Shown in pieces: positions 6,040-35,003 of a stretch of 35,195 nucleotides of DNA. The notes beneath the pieces are model-generated. The model saw only the letters and a program-made list of their open reading frames with translations. It was not told the DNA's origin and searched no databases. Made by a program: the position numbers and the translations under genes. This DNA is from Bradyrhizobiaceae bacterium (lineage in GTDB: Bacteria > Bacteroidota > Ignavibacteria > Kapaibacteriales > Kapaibacteriaceae). Location of the stretch: contig JAGFIZ010000056.1 of the NCBI GenBank assembly GCA_024103135.1, positions 1 to 35,195 on the forward strand, read 5' to 3'. Position 1 is the stretch's first letter, and each line of letters starts with the position of its first letter.

Positions 6040-7127
6040 TGAATTCACACTCTTCACCGGCGTTCACTCTTCAGGAAATTGCTGCGCTTGTGCAAGGTTC
6101 AGTGCTCGGCAGTGCAGACGTTTCGATTACCGGCATACAACGCCTTGAAACGGCATTATCAAATGAGTTGTCGTTTCTTAACAGCGAGGCCTACCTAAAG
6201 TTCTTGCCGATGAGCAAGGCCGGAGCAATCCTCGTAAGCCGACATGTTTGGGAGGGGGCTCAGTCAGCCGCAAAGGTTGATGTAGCCGCAGTTGCTACGC
6301 CGCTCATCCTGGTCGACGATGCCTACCGTGCCTTCGTAACCGTCATGCAACAATTCTATCCGCCACTGACGATGACGCCTGGATTGCGTCATCCCTCGGC
6401 GGTCATCCATCCATTGGCCGTAGTACATCCGTCGGCAAGTATCGGACCTGGCTGTACGGTTGACGCTGGATGCACGATTGATGCTCATGCCATGCTCTAT
6501 GCCAACGTAAGTCTCTACGAGCATGTTCACGTTGGTGAACACAGTGTGATTCACGCCAATGTGGTGTGTAGTACGGGCACCATCATCGGAAAGCGCTGCA
6601 TCATCCATCCAGGAGCAGTGTTGGGTGCAGATGGATTTGGCTTTCTGGAGAACCAGGACGGTTCGTTTGATAAGATCCCACAAGTGGGTGTTGTGGAACT
6701 TGCTGACGACGTAGAAGTCGGTGCCAACTGCACGATCGACAGAGCGGCCGTAGGCAAGACGTACGTCGGCAAGGGCGTGAAGCTTGACAATCTTGTTCAT
6801 ATCGCTCATGGCGTGACCATTGGCGATAACACAGCCATGGCAGCGCAGGCCGGCGTGTCAGGCAGTACGACGCTGGGTGAACGGAACCGCATTGCTGGTC
6901 AGGTAGGGATCGTCGGACACATGTCCACCTGCGCCGACGTTGTAGTTGAAGCTCAGTCTGGCGTGAGCAAGTCCATTACCAGTCCTGGTCATTACTTTGG
7001 CTCCCCAGCGAAGGAGCATCGTACAGCATTACGAATGGAAGCAGCATTACGACAATTGCCAGACCTGCTGCGTGAGGTCCGCGACCTTCAGCGGGAGCTG
7101 GCTGAACTAAAGGATAAGCAACCATGA
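6039..7127 (+). CDS. lpxD: UDP-3-O-acylglucosamine N-acyltransferase LpxD
   Basis: 362 aa. It transfers a 3-hydroxyacyl chain from acyl-ACP to UDP-3-O-acylglucosamine, step 3 of lipid A synthesis, at the cytoplasmic side. The N-terminal uridine-binding domain (about 5-100) contains ITGIQRLETALSNELSFLN. Left-handed beta-helix hexapeptide repeats follow (about 110-320), with HPGAVLGADGFGF and the catalytic-loop LDNLVHIAHGVTIGDN; His257 corresponds to the catalytic His239 of E. coli. A C-terminal helix (about 335-360) ends the protein. Length is close to the usual 340. It overlaps lpxC-fabZ by ATGA. Confidence 0.96.
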   Translation: MNSHSSPAFTLQEIAALVQGSVLGSADVSITGIQRLETALSNELSFLNSEAYLKFLPMSKAGAILVSRHVWEGAQSAAKVDVAAVATPLILVDDAYRAFVTVMQQFYPPLTMTPGLRHPSAVIHPLAVVHPSASIGPGCTVDAGCTIDAHAMLYANVSLYEHVHVGEHSVIHANVVCSTGTIIGKRCIIHPGAVLGADGFGFLENQDGSFDKIPQVGVVELADDVEVGANCTIDRAAVGKTYVGKGVKLDNLVHIAHGVTIGDNTAMAAQAGVSGSTTLGERNRIAGQVGIVGHMSTCADVVVEAQSGVSKSITSPGHYFGSPAKEHRTALRMEAALRQLPDLLREVRDLQRELAELKDKQP

Positions 7128-8530
7128 GTTCCCGACAACAAACATTAGCTGGTGAAGCCACCATGTCTGGTGTTGGTTTGCATACAGGCAACGATTCTAC
7201 GATGACCATCAAGCCAGCTGCCGAAAACACTGGCTTCGTTTTTGTCCGCACAGACCTTCCCGGAAACCCGGAAGTCCCGGCCTTGGTGGACCACGTCGTA
7301 AGTCTTGCGCGTGGTACGACCATCGCCGTCGGCGATGCCGACGTTCATACGGTCGAGCATGTACTTGCTGCTCTCGTGGGGATGGGCATTGACAATTGTC
7401 GGATTGAACTCACGAACAACGAACCACCAATTGGTGATGGATCTGCACAACCGTACGTTGACATGATCAAACGGGCTGGCGTCGTCGAACAAGGTGCTAG
7501 CCGACAGGAACTCGTCATCACCGACACCATCCGGTACGTCGACGAACAGCGTGGCACCGAAATCGTTGCCCTGCCGAATCCCGAATACCGCGTAACGGTG
7601 ATGGTGGACTACAACAATCCGGCACTTGGGAGTCAGCACACCGGTCTCTTCAATCTCGAAGCAGAATTCGAGAAGGAATTTGCTCCAGCACGGACATTCT
7701 GCTTTCTCCACGAAGTCGAGATGCTTCACGAAGCTGGTCTGATCAAGGGTGGAAACCTTGAGAATGCCATCGTGATCATCGACGAAGATCTCACCGCTGA
7801 AGATCTTGAGAAAACCGTAAAGAAGTTGAACATTTCCGACAACGCCCTGCTTGGCACACCGTCAGCCGCGAACAGTCAGAAACTCCGCTTCCGCAACGAA
7901 CCAGCTCGCCATAAGCTGCTGGATATGATCGGCGACCTTGCACTGGTCGGTGCACGAATCACGGGACAGGTGCTTGCTGCACGACCCGGACATGCCAGTA
8001 ACATTGCCTTTGCACGGTTGTTGCGCGAAGAGTACAAGAAGCAACGTAAGGGACCGTGGATCCGATCGGTCGACACTACGACGACGCATTTCAACTGTCA
8101 GGACATTCTGCGCATCATGCCACATCGGTATCCATTCTTGTTGGTTGATCGCATTATCGAGTTCGACGAGGTGAACAAGCGTATCCTAGGTCTGAAGAAC
8201 ATCTCCTTCAACGAGCCACAGTTCATGGGACATTTCCCTGGACGCCCCATCTTCCCAGGGGTACTCATTACCGAGGCCATGGCACAGACCGGCTGTATGC
8301 TGCTTCTCGCAGAGGGCATGGATGTTTCTCAGAAACTCGTAGTGTTCACTGGCATGAACAACGTTAAGTTTCGTAAAGAAGTCAACCCTGGCGATCAACT
8401 ACTCATGGACGTCAAGCTTATCAAGTACCGTTTCAACATAGTCCAGCTTGAAGCACGCGCATACGTTGGATCGACGCTTGTTGCTGAGGCCGATCTTTCT
8501 GCCGCCGTCGTCGACAGGGAGGTCAAGTGA
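7124..8530 (+). CDS. lpxC/fabZ: bifunctional LpxC deacetylase / FabZ dehydratase fusion
   Basis: 468 aa. Residues 1-310 are LpxC, the zinc-dependent deacetylase that commits UDP-3-O-acyl-GlcNAc to lipid A: HTVEH with metal His79, the region around Glu78, RHKLLDMIGDL with His263 and Asp267, and catalytic-type His290 in ARPGH. Residues about 325-468 are FabZ, the 3-hydroxyacyl-ACP dehydratase: MPHRYPFLLVDR, His370 in FMGHFPGRP and Glu384 in LITEAMAQ. The two enzymes compete for 3-hydroxyacyl-ACP (lipid A versus phospholipid), so fusion fixes their ratio. This fusion is characteristic of Bacteroidota, Chlorobiota and relatives. It overlaps lpxA by GTGA. Confidence 0.97.
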   Translation: MSSRQQTLAGEATMSGVGLHTGNDSTMTIKPAAENTGFVFVRTDLPGNPEVPALVDHVVSLARGTTIAVGDADVHTVEHVLAALVGMGIDNCRIELTNNEPPIGDGSAQPYVDMIKRAGVVEQGASRQELVITDTIRYVDEQRGTEIVALPNPEYRVTVMVDYNNPALGSQHTGLFNLEAEFEKEFAPARTFCFLHEVEMLHEAGLIKGGNLENAIVIIDEDLTAEDLEKTVKKLNISDNALLGTPSAANSQKLRFRNEPARHKLLDMIGDLALVGARITGQVLAARPGHASNIAFARLLREEYKKQRKGPWIRSVDTTTTHFNCQDILRIMPHRYPFLLVDRIIEFDEVNKRILGLKNISFNEPQFMGHFPGRPIFPGVLITEAMAQTGCMLLLAEGMDVSQKLVVFTGMNNVKFRKEVNPGDQLLMDVKLIKYRFNIVQLEARAYVGSTLVAEADLSAAVVDREVK

Positions 8531-28657: not shown

Positions 28658-30445
28658 ATGGCAAACATCCACATCCTTCCTGAATACCTAGCCAACCAGA
28701 TTGCTGCTGGAGAAGTAGTTCAACGACCAGAAAGCGTCGTCAAGGAACTCGTGGAGAATGCCGTGGACGCTGGAGCAACGGCCATCAGCGTGGTTGTTCG
28801 TGATGCAGGTAAACAGTTGATTCATGTGATTGACAATGGCGGGGGAATGTCCAAAGACGACCTTGCCATGAGCGTAGTGCGCCATGCTACGAGCAAGATC
28901 AAGACTGAGCACGACCTTCATGCAATTAGAACGTTGGGCTTCAGAGGCGAGGCCTTGGCCTCCATCGCAGCCGTTGCCGATGTTGAAATCCGTACGAAGC
29001 TTCAACCGTCAGCCGAGGATGATGGTGTCAGCTCTACAGGGTGGGTACTAGCATCCAGACCTGGTGAGTCCCCTGACATTCGTCCCATTGCTACTTCAGT
29101 GGGGACACAGATTCTTGTACGCAATCTGTTCTACAATGTCCCTGCACGACGAAAGTTTCTGAAGAGTGATCTTACGGAGTTCAGGCACGTAAGCGAAACC
29201 ATGCAGCGCATGGCTCTCTCTCGTACCGATGTTCGATTCACCTTCCACGATGGCGATGTACTGGTTTTCGATGTTCGTCCATCCTCGTTGCTTCAACGCA
29301 TTCGAGACGTGCTGGGCATCAACGCCGATCGAGCACTCGTCCCAGTTAGCATGGTAGAGGACGGCATTTCCGTAAGCGGGTACGTAGGGCTTCCGGAGAT
29401 TGCTAGACAGAGCAGGAGTGGACAGTTTCTCTTCCTCAATGGTCGTCCCATTACAAGCAGACCACTGGCTCATGCCATTCTCACTGCGTACGAACAGTTG
29501 TTGAGTACTGGCTCCCACCCAGTGTTCGTTGTGAACATCGAGATTGATCCCAACAAGGTCGACGTCAACGTCCACCCACAGAAGCACGAAGTCAAGTTCG
29601 ACAACGAGCGTGCTGCCTACCTCCTCATTCAGGTAGCCGTCACCAAGGCATTGCGTGAAGCCGATGTACTTCCTGCCTTTCTTGGCGATCTACCGTTGGC
29701 CAGCAAGCCATTACAAGGTCTAGCGACGCCCGCGGCTGGCGGGATTACCTATGTGAACAGACTTACGGGAGAAATCGTCCACAGTCAAACCTCTTCGTCA
29801 CCTCCGCCTACGTTCCCGCCAGTACGGTCAGCTCATGGTGGTGCGGTGGCTGCTGCCTTGTTCACACCACCTCCCAAAACAGAACAAGCACCAGTGTTCC
29901 AAGCTGGATCACAATACATACTCACACCAACAGCCGATGGTGTGATGGTGATCGATCAGCATGCTGCACATGAGCGAGTGATCTACGAGCGTGTGATGAA
30001 CAAGCATGCCACACCAGCTCATGCCGAGCAGGCCTTGTTGTTTTCGGTGAAGATTACACGATCGCCCAGTGAAATCGTCATTGTTCGCGAATACCTCGCT
30101 GAGTTTCAGAAGCTTGGGTTTCGGTTGGACATTTTGGATTCAACAACGATTGAAATCCATAGTGTGCCGACCGACGTTCAACCAGGTAACGAAGAACAGG
30201 TGCTCGGTAAGTTGATTGACAGTCTGCAACACGGAGGAACGATTCCGAAGGAACGACGCTTCGATCACATCGCTACCATGTTTGCTGCAAAACAAGCAAT
30301 TCGGCGTGGTGATCGTCTCGGGACCGAGGAGATGCAGACCTTGGTGGAGAACCTCCTCAAATGTGCTTTGCCACATTTGACGCCAGAGGGGAAACCCACA
30401 TTCTTTCTGCTTCCGTTCGACGAACTCTCATCAAGATTAACATGA
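28658..30445 (+). CDS. mutL: DNA mismatch repair endonuclease MutL
   Basis: 595 aa. The N-terminal GHKL ATPase has IAAGEVVQRPESVVKELVENAVDAGA, VIDNGGGMSKDDL, HATSKI and TLGFRGEALASIAAV, followed by GTQILVRNLFYNVPARRKFL and NVDVNVHPQKHEVKF-like text. After a variable Pro/Ser-rich linker (about 340-415), the C-terminal domain carries the endonuclease motif DQHAAHERVIYE, matching DQHAx2Ex4E, so this MutL should nick DNA itself, as expected where MutH is absent. The C-terminal CALPHLTPEGKPTFFLL completes the metal site region. A stop/ATG overlap (ATGA) couples the next gene. Confidence 0.97.
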   Translation: MANIHILPEYLANQIAAGEVVQRPESVVKELVENAVDAGATAISVVVRDAGKQLIHVIDNGGGMSKDDLAMSVVRHATSKIKTEHDLHAIRTLGFRGEALASIAAVADVEIRTKLQPSAEDDGVSSTGWVLASRPGESPDIRPIATSVGTQILVRNLFYNVPARRKFLKSDLTEFRHVSETMQRMALSRTDVRFTFHDGDVLVFDVRPSSLLQRIRDVLGINADRALVPVSMVEDGISVSGYVGLPEIARQSRSGQFLFLNGRPITSRPLAHAILTAYEQLLSTGSHPVFVVNIEIDPNKVDVNVHPQKHEVKFDNERAAYLLIQVAVTKALREADVLPAFLGDLPLASKPLQGLATPAAGGITYVNRLTGEIVHSQTSSSPPPTFPPVRSAHGGAVAAALFTPPPKTEQAPVFQAGSQYILTPTADGVMVIDQHAAHERVIYERVMNKHATPAHAEQALLFSVKITRSPSEIVIVREYLAEFQKLGFRLDILDSTTIEIHSVPTDVQPGNEEQVLGKLIDSLQHGGTIPKERRFDHIATMFAAKQAIRRGDRLGTEEMQTLVENLLKCALPHLTPEGKPTFFLLPFDELSSRLT

Positions 30446-31104
30446 CAGTCTACGCCAAGAAGCCAACTCCAATGTATTCGCCGAACTGTGTGATTGCAGC
30501 CCTCTGCATGGCGTTGTTCTTGCCATTGAGCACCACTGCGGCTACACCTCGCACCGAAGTACTGCTGAGTAGCAATGCAGCGACCATGCATGAGCAGCAG
30601 AAGCCCGATCCCGACATGGATTCCTTGCGTGCATGGTTGCAAGGGGATTTTGATACGAAGGAGCAGATTAGGCACGATAGCACGGCTCGCTATGCCAAGC
30701 TTGCTATCCGCGAGTTTTCACAGGAAGGTATGGATGGACTGTGGTTCACCTTTACGTTGTATGCGGACCCCGACACCACAGCCCCCTTCCAAACTCTTGT
30801 CCTCCAGGTCCATCGCGTCGAAGATGGCATGATCGAAGTGATTCAGTACGACCAAGCAGAGAGCGGACAGAAACTCAAACGTCGATTCGGATGCGAATGG
30901 TACCTCCAGTTTAGTGGTAAGGGCTTTGGTGGAGGCACTCATGGGTATGCCTGTGCAGCAACGGCTGGGGGAGCATATTCCACGACGGAAGTAGACATTC
31001 GGAGCTTTGGCATCAAGTACTGGCTGCGGAATTACACATCGGATCGGTTGTTGGCTGATGGCATAAGGCAGACTCCGCTTTTGTTTATGCGATCGACCCC
31101 ATGA
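30442..31104 (+). CDS. CpcT/CpeT-like secreted protein
   Basis: 220 aa from ATG 30442, which overlaps the mutL stop (ATGA); a longer frame from 30361 would lie inside mutL. A signal peptide follows Lys-rich residues (about 1-35, ending TTAATPR). The mature part has SLRAWLQGDFDTKEQ, GLWFTFTLYADPDTTAPFQTLVLQVHRV, CEWYLQFSGKGFGGGT and GYACAATAGGAYSTTEVDI, which resemble the CpcT/CpeT fold: LxxWLxGxFD/S at the start, a YRQRVYRL-like strand replaced by LVLQVHRV, and paired Cys. Those lyases attach bilin to phycobiliproteins, but homologues occur in non-phototrophs without bilins. Here a periplasmic lipocalin-like role is plausible. Assignment is from memory of family patterns. Confidence 0.55.
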   Translation: MTVYAKKPTPMYSPNCVIAALCMALFLPLSTTAATPRTEVLLSSNAATMHEQQKPDPDMDSLRAWLQGDFDTKEQIRHDSTARYAKLAIREFSQEGMDGLWFTFTLYADPDTTAPFQTLVLQVHRVEDGMIEVIQYDQAESGQKLKRRFGCEWYLQFSGKGFGGGTHGYACAATAGGAYSTTEVDIRSFGIKYWLRNYTSDRLLADGIRQTPLLFMRSTP

Positions 31105-31181: not shown

Positions 31182-32000
31182 ATGACAAATTCCTACGTTC
31201 TCATTCTTGGTGCATCCAGCGGGTTTGGCCGTGCAGCTGCACTGAAACTTGCACGCGAAGGGTTCGGCGTCTTTGGCGTCCACCTTGATCGTGCTGCTGG
31301 AATGAAGCAAGTAGAGGAGCTCCAGGCGGAACTCACTGCTCTTGGTGTACCGTTCAAGTTCTGGAACGTCAATGCCGTTGATGCTGCACAGCGCAGTGCC
31401 ATTGTTGCAGAGATTTCAGAGCAGTTCAAGAACAACCCTGGTTCTGAAGTTCGCCTACTCTTGCACTCACTTGCCTTTGGAACCCTCAAGCCCTTTGTGG
31501 ACGTCGATGGCGGTGATACCGTATCGCAGAAGAGTCTGGAGATGACCTTGGACGTCATGGCCAATTCGCTGATCTACTGGGTGCAGGATGTTGTCCGCGC
31601 TGGCATTATGGGGCAAGGGGGCAGGGTAGTTGGTCTTACCAGTGCGGGTAGTACGCGTGTGCTGCCAACCTACGGTGCTGTAAGCGCAGCAAAGGCCGCC
31701 TTGGAAAGTTATGGACGTCAGCTTGCCCTTGAACTCACGCCATACGGCATCACCTCGAACACCATTCGCGCCGGCGTTACCCATACACCGGCACTAGCGA
31801 AAATCCCTGGCAACGATGTGATTATGGCCAATGCCTTCATGCGTAATCCGCACCATCGTCTTACCACACCGGAAGACGTAGCCAATGTGCTTTCGCTACT
31901 TGTACGACCAGAAGCCCAGTGGATCAACGGCGAAGTAATCGGAGTAGATGGTGGCGAAGACTCCGTCGATCTTACCTGGTGGAAGGCACCGCAAGCATAA
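31182..32000 (+). CDS. SDR-family enoyl-ACP reductase-like protein (FabI/FabL type)
   Basis: 272 aa. Rossmann motif GASSGFGRAAALKLA near the N-terminus, then NVNAVDAAQ and the catalytic motif: Tyr164 followed six residues later by Lys171 (YGAVSAAK). Tyr-x6-Lys separates enoyl-ACP reductases from ordinary Tyr-x3-Lys SDRs. The opening GASSGFG is more FabL-like than the FabI GxxxxxSxA signature. HSLAFGTLKPFVD resembles the FabI/FabL HSIAF region. The expected reaction is NAD(P)H-dependent reduction of trans-2-enoyl-ACP in fatty-acid elongation, downstream of the FabZ domain in this window. A C-terminal IGVDGGEDSV fits the family. FabL versus another SDR is not certain. Confidence 0.75.
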   Translation: MTNSYVLILGASSGFGRAAALKLAREGFGVFGVHLDRAAGMKQVEELQAELTALGVPFKFWNVNAVDAAQRSAIVAEISEQFKNNPGSEVRLLLHSLAFGTLKPFVDVDGGDTVSQKSLEMTLDVMANSLIYWVQDVVRAGIMGQGGRVVGLTSAGSTRVLPTYGAVSAAKAALESYGRQLALELTPYGITSNTIRAGVTHTPALAKIPGNDVIMANAFMRNPHHRLTTPEDVANVLSLLVRPEAQWINGEVIGVDGGEDSVDLTWWKAPQA

Positions 32001-32100
32001 CGGCACGGTGACCATGAACGAGACGTCGGCAGGACAGGTACAAGGTGCCAAGACAATACATGGTGTGCCTTATAACTTGTTGACCTCAAGAATTCTACGG

Positions 32101-32979
32101 ATGCGTTCGGGTGTGGTGACCTTGCTGGCATTGTTATGCTGTTCTGTCGGTCTTCTCCATGCACAGTCATCTGATCCAAACGTGCAGAGCATCGTCAATG
32201 CAGTGATCGACACGTGCTCTCGTCCGACTTCGATTGCCGTCCTTAAACTTGATGGATCACGTCCGGTCGTTGCATCGCGTAACGTCCGTCCGACAGAGAA
32301 ATTCTCCGAACCTGGTTCAAGCGTAAAGCCGATACTGGCCTGGCTTGCGGCGTCCAAAGACGTCCTCTCGGCTGGCGAAAGCATTGTCTGCACGGGTACC
32401 ACTGGCGAACCACGATGCTTTGCCAACCACGGACGTGTTGATCTGCGTAAGGCACTAGCCACATCGTGTAATGCGTTTGCCTTTGAATTGGCTGGACGTC
32501 TCGGTGCTGACAATGTAGTACAAGGGTTTGTGAACTTCGGCTTTCCAAGGTTGGATACGGCACTTCCAAACACCTTGCAGGCAGCTTGGTCGTATGGAAC
32601 GGGACACCATCCATGCTACCTGGAACCGGCACAACTTGTCAGCGCCTATGCACGACTGATCGACAGTCTGTTTTCCGAGAGCAGTACGGTGAATGCTACG
32701 CTCCGCGAGGAGATTCTTGATGGTATGCGATTGGTTGTGGAGGGGGCTGAAGGCACGGCTCCGTTAGCACGGAACGATAGGGTGACGATTGCTGGAAAGA
32801 CTGGCACAGGAGTAGGAGTGAAGGGAGGAGCAGGGGAGCGGACATCATCGTGGTTCGTTGGCTATGCACCTGTGGATCGTCCACGCTACATCGTCGTGGT
32901 TTCCGTCCTCGATGGCACAAACGGCGGCACCGATGCTGCTCCGATTGCACGCGAGGTGTTGATTCGGCTGTTGAAGTAA
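32101..32979 (+). CDS. minimal penicillin-binding transpeptidase-domain protein
   Basis: 292 aa from ATG 32101, which starts a signal peptide (MRSGVVTLLALLCCSVGLLHAQ). An alternative ATG at 32014 would add 29 residues ahead of it. The serine-transpeptidase triad is intact: Ser73-Ser-Val-Lys76 in EPGSSVKPI, Ser122-Cys-Asn124 in TSCNAFAFEL, and Lys233-Thr-Gly in IAGKTGTGVGV. It consists of a transpeptidase domain alone, without the N-terminal dimerisation or glycosyltransferase modules of PBP2/PBP3 or PBP1, so it is about half the usual length. Class D beta-lactamase-like enzymes share SxxK/SxN/KTG; a role in D,D-transpeptidation or beta-lactam binding is inferred. Convergent with the MauG gene. 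Confidence 0.8.
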   Translation: MRSGVVTLLALLCCSVGLLHAQSSDPNVQSIVNAVIDTCSRPTSIAVLKLDGSRPVVASRNVRPTEKFSEPGSSVKPILAWLAASKDVLSAGESIVCTGTTGEPRCFANHGRVDLRKALATSCNAFAFELAGRLGADNVVQGFVNFGFPRLDTALPNTLQAAWSYGTGHHPCYLEPAQLVSAYARLIDSLFSESSTVNATLREEILDGMRLVVEGAEGTAPLARNDRVTIAGKTGTGVGVKGGAGERTSSWFVGYAPVDRPRYIVVVSVLDGTNGGTDAAPIAREVLIRLLK

Positions 32980-33037: not shown

Positions 33038-34006
33038 CTAGTGTGCATCGGTAAGCAGCGAGAGAAACTGCAGGAGGTCAGCAACGTCGTGATCTGTTAG
33101 CACTACAGATTCGAAGCGCTCTTCAGCCACAATGTGCGGATGTTGATGATGTTGGTAGCCTTTTAGCACGTCGATCAACGTCGATACCGAGCCATCGTGC
33201 ATGTAGGGATAGGTAAGAGCAACATTGCGCAGTGATGGTACTCGAATGGAGTCAAGTTGCTCCATGCCATGTTCATCCAGGAAGCGTCCGCTATTGCCAA
33301 CCTTGATGAGCTCGTGATTGGTGAGCAATACACCAGAGTGACATGACGTACATTGCCCCCTTCCTTCAAAAACCGTCCAGCCACGTTTTTGCGACTCAGT
33401 AAGCCTTTGTGGTTTTGCATAGACCGTCACGCTGTCGAACACGGAACTGAATCGTGGTAGCGTGCGCTCGAATGCGCTGATGGCACGGGTTAGAACCCAC
33501 GGGTCCAGATCTCGTCCATACGCCCTCCGACTCATCGCTTGGTAGGTTGTGTCAGTACTGAGTTTTCGTACCACGGCAAGAATGTTCTCGGCAAACTCAT
33601 GCTGCTCCTGGATCGGAACGAGCACCTGCATTTCAAGTGTCGGTACGGTGTTGCCACGCAGGAGACGTGGTTCGAAAGCGGCATAGGTGATGCTTGGGAC
33701 GTTGGCCTTACCAGGTCTGCCGAACGCCCCTGCATTCATTACTGTAGTGCTGGCGAAGGCTGACGATTCTTGGTGACATGATGCACAGGATGTGGATGCA
33801 TCGGCAGAAAGGCGCACGTCGTGAAACAAAGCCCTGCCTAGTGCAACACGCTCCGGTGTTGACAAATTGTCTTCCGGGAATGGTACGGCAGGTATCGCAT
33901 AGTGGCTGCTAGGCCACCATCCATCATCAACGACGGTTGTGTCGCATGAACACAACAGGCAGCCAAGTGCGCTGACTACGGTGATGATCGTGCGCGTAGC
34001 CGACAT
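33038..34006 (-). CDS. di-haem cytochrome c peroxidase/MauG family lipoprotein (MbnH-like)
   Basis: 322 aa. The N-terminus carries a signal peptide with a possible lipobox ending at Cys21 (CLLCSC). Two c-type haem sites are present: CASCH at 74-78 and CTSCH at 219-223. The family frame is complete: FPEDNLSTPERVALGRALFHD, DASTSCASCHQ, RLLRGNTVPTLEMQVLVP, ISAFERTLPRFSS, SIRVPSLRNVALTYPYMHDGS. MauG-type enzymes form high-valent di-haem species and oxidise protein tryptophans. It follows the MbnP-like gene by 4 bases; in methanobactin and related loci MbnH modifies MbnP, so this pairing is the best guide to substrate. Distal-haem ligand not resolved. Confidence 0.88.
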   Translation of the reverse strand: MSATRTIITVVSALGCLLCSCDTTVVDDGWWPSSHYAIPAVPFPEDNLSTPERVALGRALFHDVRLSADASTSCASCHQESSAFASTTVMNAGAFGRPGKANVPSITYAAFEPRLLRGNTVPTLEMQVLVPIQEQHEFAENILAVVRKLSTDTTYQAMSRRAYGRDLDPWVLTRAISAFERTLPRFSSVFDSVTVYAKPQRLTESQKRGWTVFEGRGQCTSCHSGVLLTNHELIKVGNSGRFLDEHGMEQLDSIRVPSLRNVALTYPYMHDGSVSTLIDVLKGYQHHQHPHIVAEERFESVVLTDHDVADLLQFLSLLTDAH

Positions 34007-34010
34007 GCCA

Positions 34011-35003
34011 TTAACGTTGAATGATGACGACTGACGATTGCGGCTTACGTCCGACCGATGTCTGAATCAGTTGATATGCGCCGGTTGGGATAGACGAAAC
34101 ATCAATGCGTGACTCGCCGGAATCCAACTCCAAGTTGAAAACAACGGCACCTAGCGAATTCACCAATTGAACTGTGCACGGTTGCATGGCCGAGACGGAC
34201 AGCACCGTATTGGCAGGGGTGGGAAACACTGCGGACGTGAAGTCATGGACATTGTTGACGCTTGTAGCCGTGCCGCTGAAGACCTTCGTGCTCATGTTGT
34301 CCATGACCGTGATTGCCTCGCCTTCGGCGCTGTGATTGATCAAACCCAGGTCTACGCGAATATCATCGAGCATCGCGCCAATGTCCATGTTAATGTTTAG
34401 TACCAAGGTGTCGTTGGTCCACGTCTGCCCGACGATTGTTTGTGCCTGACGGTACAGCGAATCGTCCACCGTATGAATTTCAAACAGGTTTTCTGGCGCA
34501 GATGCATTGCTTCGTGCCTGACCTTCGATGACCACAAATCGATAGCCCGCTGTCCAACCCCAATGCATGGACGGGTCTTGATTGCCTAGTGGGTGACCTG
34601 CAGGGTAGGTACTGGGATCAAGGTGGTTGTAGATAGGAGGAACACCAATGCCAAAGATTACCGAGGCAGCACTGTCGACCTCTGCATAGCCGATCATGTA
34701 GGTCGTGTCTTCAAAAACATTGCCGAGTACGACTGATTCTTTGACAAGCACTGGGTCGCCCACTGGCGGCACGACCCGCATAGCAGTCAAGTAGAACTGA
34801 AGGCGGGTAACGTTGATCTGTTGAGATCCATCGCCGATGGTGGCATACTCACCAGGGACAAAGGGACGTCCACCAACGTGGTAGTGAATCTTTACGCCAA
34901 TGGGACGAGCATTGACCAGAAGGGTGGATAGCAACAGGACGACAAAACCCGTTATCGTCGCCAATCGATAGTCGGTCGTGAACTTTGAAGTATGCATAAT
35001 CAT
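34011..35003 (-). CDS. MbnP-like copper-binding-family protein with T9SS type A sorting domain
   Basis: 330 aa. Signal segment about 13-33 (TITGFVVLLLSTLLVNARP). Residues about 36-235 match the MbnP family: IHYHVGGRPF, INVTRLQFYLTAMRVVPP, FGIGVPPIYNHLDPSTYPAG, and SMHWGWTAGYRFVVIEG with Trp148 and Trp150. In characterised MbnP a tryptophan is oxidised to kynurenine and helps bind copper with nearby His; His127, His147 and His177 are candidates here. Residues about 255-330 form a type IX secretion sorting domain: FPTPANTVLSV, GAVVFNLELDSGESRIDVSS and PTGAYQL. So it is probably exported and anchored outside the cell. ATG 35003 or ATG 34997 are both possible starts. First gene of the pair. Confidence 0.82.
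   Translation of the reverse strand: MIMHTSKFTTDYRLATITGFVVLLLSTLLVNARPIGVKIHYHVGGRPFVPGEYATIGDGSQQINVTRLQFYLTAMRVVPPVGDPVLVKESVVLGNVFEDTTYMIGYAEVDSAASVIFGIGVPPIYNHLDPSTYPAGHPLGNQDPSMHWGWTAGYRFVVIEGQARSNASAPENLFEIHTVDDSLYRQAQTIVGQTWTNDTLVLNINMDIGAMLDDIRVDLGLINHSAEGEAITVMDNMSTKVFSGTATSVNNVHDFTSAVFPTPANTVLSVSAMQPCTVQLVNSLGAVVFNLELDSGESRIDVSSIPTGAYQLIQTSVGRKPQSSVVIIQR

Follow-up and report, generated by a model that had tools for sequence, protein, structure and literature searches.

The two genes that lie close to the end of the window (i.e., the whole stretch of 35,195 nucleotides analysed here) raise the question whether a member of the Bacteroidota exports a protein whose metal site is completed by an enzyme-made kynurenine. 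An earlier sequence-only reading had described an MbnP-like gene followed after 4 bases by a di-haem MauG-family gene; the open reading frames lie exactly where it placed them, with the enzyme gene downstream, and its residue numbering (W148, W150, H127, H147 and H177) was right. The features on which the analysis relies are listed here.

34011..35003, minus strand: MbnP-family protein of 330 aa (Pfam and predicted fold), with a signal peptide (about residues 1-33), an MbnP domain (34-246) and a type A T9SS sorting domain (about 255-330)
34554..34568, minus strand: codons of M146-H147-W148-G149-W150, the WxW motif (conservation and 7L6G alignment), W148 being the predicted kynurenine
34473..34475, minus strand: codon of H177, likely metal ligand (aligned with 7L6G)
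34014..34241, minus strand: T9SS type A C-terminal sorting domain, residues about 255-330
33038..34006, minus strand: di-haem MauG/MbnH-like lipoprotein of 322 aa, of the type labelled A below
33656..33658, minus strand: codon of R117, at the site of the inter-haem Trp in MauG and MbnH

About 190 bases separate mbnP from the upstream end of the contig (position 35195), and the gene downstream of the pair (31948-32979, a transpeptidase) is convergent, so that the visible operon consists of the pair alone. A profile search of the whole genome found no MbnB homologue (0 matches to PF05114) and thus no sign of methanobactin; a methanobactin link was ruled out, and the earlier statement that no methanobactin gene is seen holds genome-wide. 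A phage origin of the locus was also rejected (no PHROG match). Elsewhere in the window (7124-8530), an LpxC-FabA/FabZ-like domain fusion lies inside an lpxD-lpxC-lpxA run.

The first protein of the pair matched the Pfam MbnP domain (PF20243; E 1.4e-21; 77.7 bits, cut-off 27), and its match to the NCBIfam model of the MbnP copper-binding equivalog (TIGR04052) was well under cut-off (43.9 versus 140 bits). A PDB sequence search with this protein alone retrieved no MbnP; profiles built from relatives and a comparison of folds were needed instead. In a structure model built on 83 sequences (mean pLDDT 92.4), residues 30-246 resemble the solved MbnP of Methylosinus trichosporium, deposited as a "metallo-mystery pair" protein (7L6G; Z 17.1, 203 residues, rmsd 3.0).

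In the alignment of these two proteins, GMAWNW of 7L6G corresponds to SMHWGW and MVHVG to FEIH, such that W148 is aligned with the first Trp of the WxW motif. Among 83 T9SS-type homologues, M146, H147, W148, W150, H177 and H224 are identical throughout, while H137 is present in 78 and H127 in 65. When T9SS-type MbnPs are pooled with those that lack the C-terminal domain (CTD-less), W148, W150 and H177 remain invariant and M146 nearly so. The window protein and 7L6G have M146, W148, W150 and H177 in common, H177 being the only His conserved between them in the alignments. H147 is invariant in the T9SS-type subfamily only, with Ala at that position in 7L6G. Of the residues singled out before for alignment to MbnP, both Trp and H177 were thus recovered and H147 and H127 were not. 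In OB3b MbnP, the first Trp of WxW is reportedly converted to kynurenine, and Cu(I) is said to be held by one His, one Met and solvent. Judged by conservation, the M146/W148/H177 set fits such a His/Met/kynurenine site and differs from the three-His site put forward earlier. We consider a metal site at these three residues decidedly probable, and, with less confidence, we favor a kynurenine at W148.

The C-terminal tail of the protein matched Por_Secre_tail (PF18962) barely above cut-off (E 3.3e-6; 27.7 versus 27 bits) and TIGR04183 barely below it (21.7 versus 23 bits). These weak profile scores are backed by the predicted fold and by the occurrence of the same tail in homologues: model residues 250-330 resemble solved T9SS CTDs (8qb1, Z 11.3; 8glk, Z 10.5; RgpB 5ag8, Z 9.3), and a sorting domain was found in 72 of the 83 T9SS-type homologues as compared to 0 of 14 CTD-less paralogues. 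The type A T9SS sorting domain noted in the sequence-only reading is therefore retained. The window genome also encodes SprA (a frame of 2243 aa) and a C25 PorU-type peptidase, and contains 84 sorting-domain hits. Overall, profile matches and modelled folds support both assignments well, i.e., membership in the MbnP family and export by the T9SS, and we regard the predicted export as very likely. Since periplasmic folding ahead of export has been proposed for T9SS substrates (PMC10202324), room would be left for modification before export. The literature searched, which omits the main MbnP papers, contained no paper on MbnP with type IX secretion.

The adjacent enzyme matched CCP_MauG (E 2.1e-38) and carries two CxxCH haem motifs (C74-H78 and C219-H223) and a lipobox Cys (Cys21). 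Its match to the NCBIfam MbnH model (TIGR04039) was well under cut-off (173.2 versus 362.85 bits). Among solved structures, MbnH (6E1C) was the best match by sequence (E 2.5e-32) and by fold (Z 28.3, 280 residues), narrowly above MacA and other peroxidases and also above MauG. The distal pocket is kept (Q127/P131/E137); in MauG the distal residues are Gln103/Pro107/Glu113, which are conserved across peroxidases, MauG and BthA (PMC6405878). Alignments place R117 where MbnH, MauG and bacterial peroxidases have an inter-haem Trp. In MauG this residue is Trp93, which has a role in charge hopping (PMC6405878), and the MauG route is thus missing in the window enzyme. BthA, with Ser at the inter-haem position, still forms bis-Fe(IV) (PMC6405878), which shows that the Trp is not essential for this state. 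With Arg117 in place of the Trp, kynurenine formation by the window enzyme is an extrapolation, plausible and less certain than the sequence-only reading assumed; fold, haem motifs and gene position agree with an MbnH, while the inter-haem residue and the TIGR04039 score do not.

A scan of GTDB genomes found 382 relatives, and 80 loci of these were taken for comparison, spanning Kapabacteria/Ignavibacteria, Flavobacteriales, Saprospirales, Chitinophagales and others. MbnP was found in 25 of 40 genomes of the family and order of the window, nearly always with an adjacent di-haem enzyme, and a di-haem enzyme adjoins MbnP in 78 of the 80 loci. The ATGCAYTGGGGNTGG motif (MHWGW; HWGW) occurred in 34 of 395 sampled Bacteroidota genomes (reversed-motif control, 1). 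By these sequence searches, MbnP-T9SS cassettes are widespread across Bacteroidota. The di-haem enzymes were labelled A or B by profile score; 59 of the 80 loci have both, 9 have A only, 10 have B only and 2 have none, some loci being cut by contig ends. The order is AB in 46 loci and BA in 13. An MbnP with one enzyme, as described before, is thus true of the window, but the usual arrangement in relatives is MbnP with two di-haem enzymes. The two labels separate cleanly at residue 117, with Trp in 0 of 69 A enzymes versus 64 of 64 B enzymes; 65 of the 69 A enzymes have Arg, usually within a REGG motif. In trees, A and B form separate supported clades, B being nearest to the partners of CTD-less MbnPs; in an unrooted tree, OB3b MbnH lies apart from a group formed by A, B and the enzymes that accompany short MbnPs. 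As the lipobox Cys is conserved (67/69 A and 64/64 B enzymes), the window enzyme is probably an envelope-anchored lipoprotein that is not itself exported.

One relative (G023, L142:6878-10671) has the gene order short MbnP (HWGW, no sorting domain), B, T9SS MbnP, A. This order points to A as the enzyme of the T9SS form and to B as that of another MbnP, the two having later come together. This pairing is not a strict rule, as B-only loci with a T9SS MbnP exist. Among the 83 homologues, no link was found between A-only or B-only status and changes in MbnP site residues. In a further locus (L050:17-2984), two tandem T9SS-type MbnP genes are followed by a single A enzyme.

The neighbour genes of the relatives' loci included no copper genes conserved beside the T9SS-form cassette; those identified encode beta-lactamase-fold proteins, DUF6992 and housekeeping functions, with a multicopper oxidase in one four-locus family. 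In several relatives, the cassette is followed by genes for beta-lactamase-fold proteins that may carry a T9SS tail (L042:9098-10366, L051:9973-11232), and an eight-locus beta-lactamase-fold family occupies gene positions +3 or +4. Two loci of the CTD-less form were also observed. The neighbours of one CTD-less MbnP/di-haem pair, in Kapabacteria (L141:1936-7660), include a multicopper oxidase and a YHYH protein, both T9SS-tailed, and a redoxin/SCO-like protein, and this is likely a copper locus. Within a few genes of the other pair (L144:469-8794), a P-type ATPase that has a heavy-metal domain is encoded. Both settings speak for the kynurenine-copper explanation set out below.

Both the window genome (G000) and a complete same-genus relative (G005) have MbnP and A and no B, and the two loci have the flanking genes mutL, cpeT-like and enoyl reductase in common. 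The cpeT-like gene of the window (30361-31104), which adjoins mutL and is kept in G005, encodes a CpeT/CpcT-family (phycobiliprotein-related) protein in a Bacteroidota host. Neither of the two other CCP_MauG genes in the window genome is a B enzyme: that at C95 encodes a typical Trp-bearing peroxidase, and that at C84 belongs to a different subfamily that also occurs in a genome without MbnP. B was thus lost from the window lineage or never present in it, and A alone must serve there if the Trp is modified. The A enzymes of this lineage (window 33038-34006 and L028:2351-3370) evolve fast; those of the window and G005 sit on long branches in the tree and lack N235/N236, which are otherwise almost universal, and a stretch of loop has been lost as well in the window enzyme and its nearest relative. 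These changes could reflect a changed or relaxed function. All invariant MbnP site residues are kept in the window lineage.

These data bear on the alternative that survives best, namely that A is a peroxidase or structural partner that forms no kynurenine, that B modifies MbnP in most genomes, and that the B-less window lineage displays an unmodified MbnP, which would bind copper through Met and His only or would bind another metal. The confinement of the inter-haem Trp to B enzymes favors B over A as the modifier, the absence of B from the window genome and the complete relative fits an unmodified MbnP there, and the fast evolution of the window A enzyme fits an A that does not make kynurenine. 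However, neither the A-only loci nor the window show any change at W148, W150, M146 or H177, which indicates that the Trp is still under selection; the gene order in G023 suggests that the T9SS form has A as its cognate enzyme; and BthA reaches the bis-Fe(IV) state without the Trp. We regard this alternative as unlikely but deserving of weight, and we consider the chances that the window A enzyme makes kynurenine alone to be evenly balanced.

In a second alternative, MbnP is exported to serve as an electron carrier or donor to di-haem cytochrome c peroxidases that act against envelope peroxide, with WxW, Met and His forming a redox site that does not serve copper acquisition. In its favor, the peroxide-binding pocket known from bacterial peroxidases is retained in the enzymes, and a cassette with two peroxidase-like enzymes would be suited to detoxification; however, the enzyme is a predicted lipoprotein while its partner leaves the cell, the nearest solved match is MbnH, and a typical Trp-bearing peroxidase is already present at C95, all of which render this explanation improbable. 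Least probable is that A and B each modify one Trp of WxW, or make another product such as a crosslink or a hydroxylated Trp, since both Trp are unchanged in A-only and B-only loci and only the first Trp of OB3b MbnP is reportedly oxidised; in its favor are the presence of both enzymes in 59 of 80 loci, the invariance of both Trp and, for another product, the Trp-Trp crosslink formed by MauG (PMC3912023).

We thus return to a protein that is exported by the T9SS and has a metal site with an enzyme-made kynurenine, the core of the explanation that we prefer by a slight margin of belief. MbnP would cross the inner membrane by Sec and fold in the periplasm, where W148 would be oxidised to kynurenine (or N-formylkynurenine) by the neighbouring di-haem lipoprotein, with peroxide reacting at the high-spin haem of the enzyme. 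The kynurenine, M146, H177 and probably H147 would complete a Cu(I) site. The sorting domain would then carry the folded, modified MbnP through the SprA/PorV translocon, and PorU would cleave the tail, leaving MbnP attached to the surface or released; modification of W148 in the periplasm before T9SS export is the most likely order. Outside the cell, MbnP may bind scarce copper or keep copper off the cell, like methanotroph MopE/CorA. A role in copper handling appears fairly likely.

What is most interesting in this system is the A enzyme, which lacks the inter-haem Trp, and the fact that it is paired with B. Tentatively, two ancient enzymes, the Trp-bearing B and the Arg-bearing A, may jointly or separately convert the WxW of a T9SS-displayed MbnP in Bacteroidota, A by another charge route, and the two genes of the window may represent this system in its minimal form, with A as the sole maker of the cofactor; we hold this extended proposal to be doubtful. 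If the preferred explanation is true, kynurenine-copper sites would be a common surface feature of Bacteroidota and no methanotroph curiosity, and would be made by periplasmic tailoring ahead of type IX export. With the A enzyme, nature provides a test of whether di-haem enzymes that tailor proteins need an inter-haem Trp, and the small size of the two-gene form would allow it to be rebuilt in a laboratory host. Our literature search found no biochemistry on the T9SS-MbnP/A-enzyme subfamily.

Among known systems, the closest is OB3b MbnP/MbnH (7L6G and 6E1C; TIGR04052/TIGR04039), with which the window pair has in common the MbnP fold, M-x-W-x-W, a conserved His and an adjacent di-haem enzyme whose best fold match is MbnH. 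The window differs in having no methanobactin genes, an added T9SS sorting domain, His for Ala before the first Trp and Arg for the inter-haem Trp, and neither of its proteins reaches the NCBIfam cut-off. MbnP/H pairs were already described in 2013 from well outside the methanobactin producers (PMC3621798), and for MopE/CorA, encoded beside di-haem enzymes, both the kynurenine-copper site and the surface location are established (PMC3912023). The idea of a surface kynurenine-copper protein, as put forward from the sequence, is thus less new than it seemed, the T9SS route being its new element. MopE/SACCP of Methylococcus capsulatus and CorA/CorB of Methylomicrobium album resemble the proposed system as surface or secreted kynurenine-copper proteins beside a di-haem enzyme (PMC3912023, PMC3621798), but MopE/CorA are not markedly similar to MbnP in sequence (PMC3621798), bind copper by two His and kynurenine, and are not exported via the T9SS.

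MauG and the bacterial di-haem peroxidases have two c-type haems, the fold and the distal Gln/Pro/Glu in common with the window enzyme; MauG, however, acts on methylamine dehydrogenase, and its Trp93 is Arg in the window enzyme. BthA of Burkholderia (PDB 6NX0) likewise lacks the inter-haem Trp (Ser), but belongs to another subfamily with no MbnP partner described, whereas A enzymes have a conserved Arg. Finally, the predicted Sec signal and Ig-like C-terminal domain of the window MbnP, together with SprA and PorU in the genome, resemble what is found for T9SS type A substrates (PF18962), from which the protein differs in its cargo, an MbnP domain, a combination that no paper of the literature searched describes.
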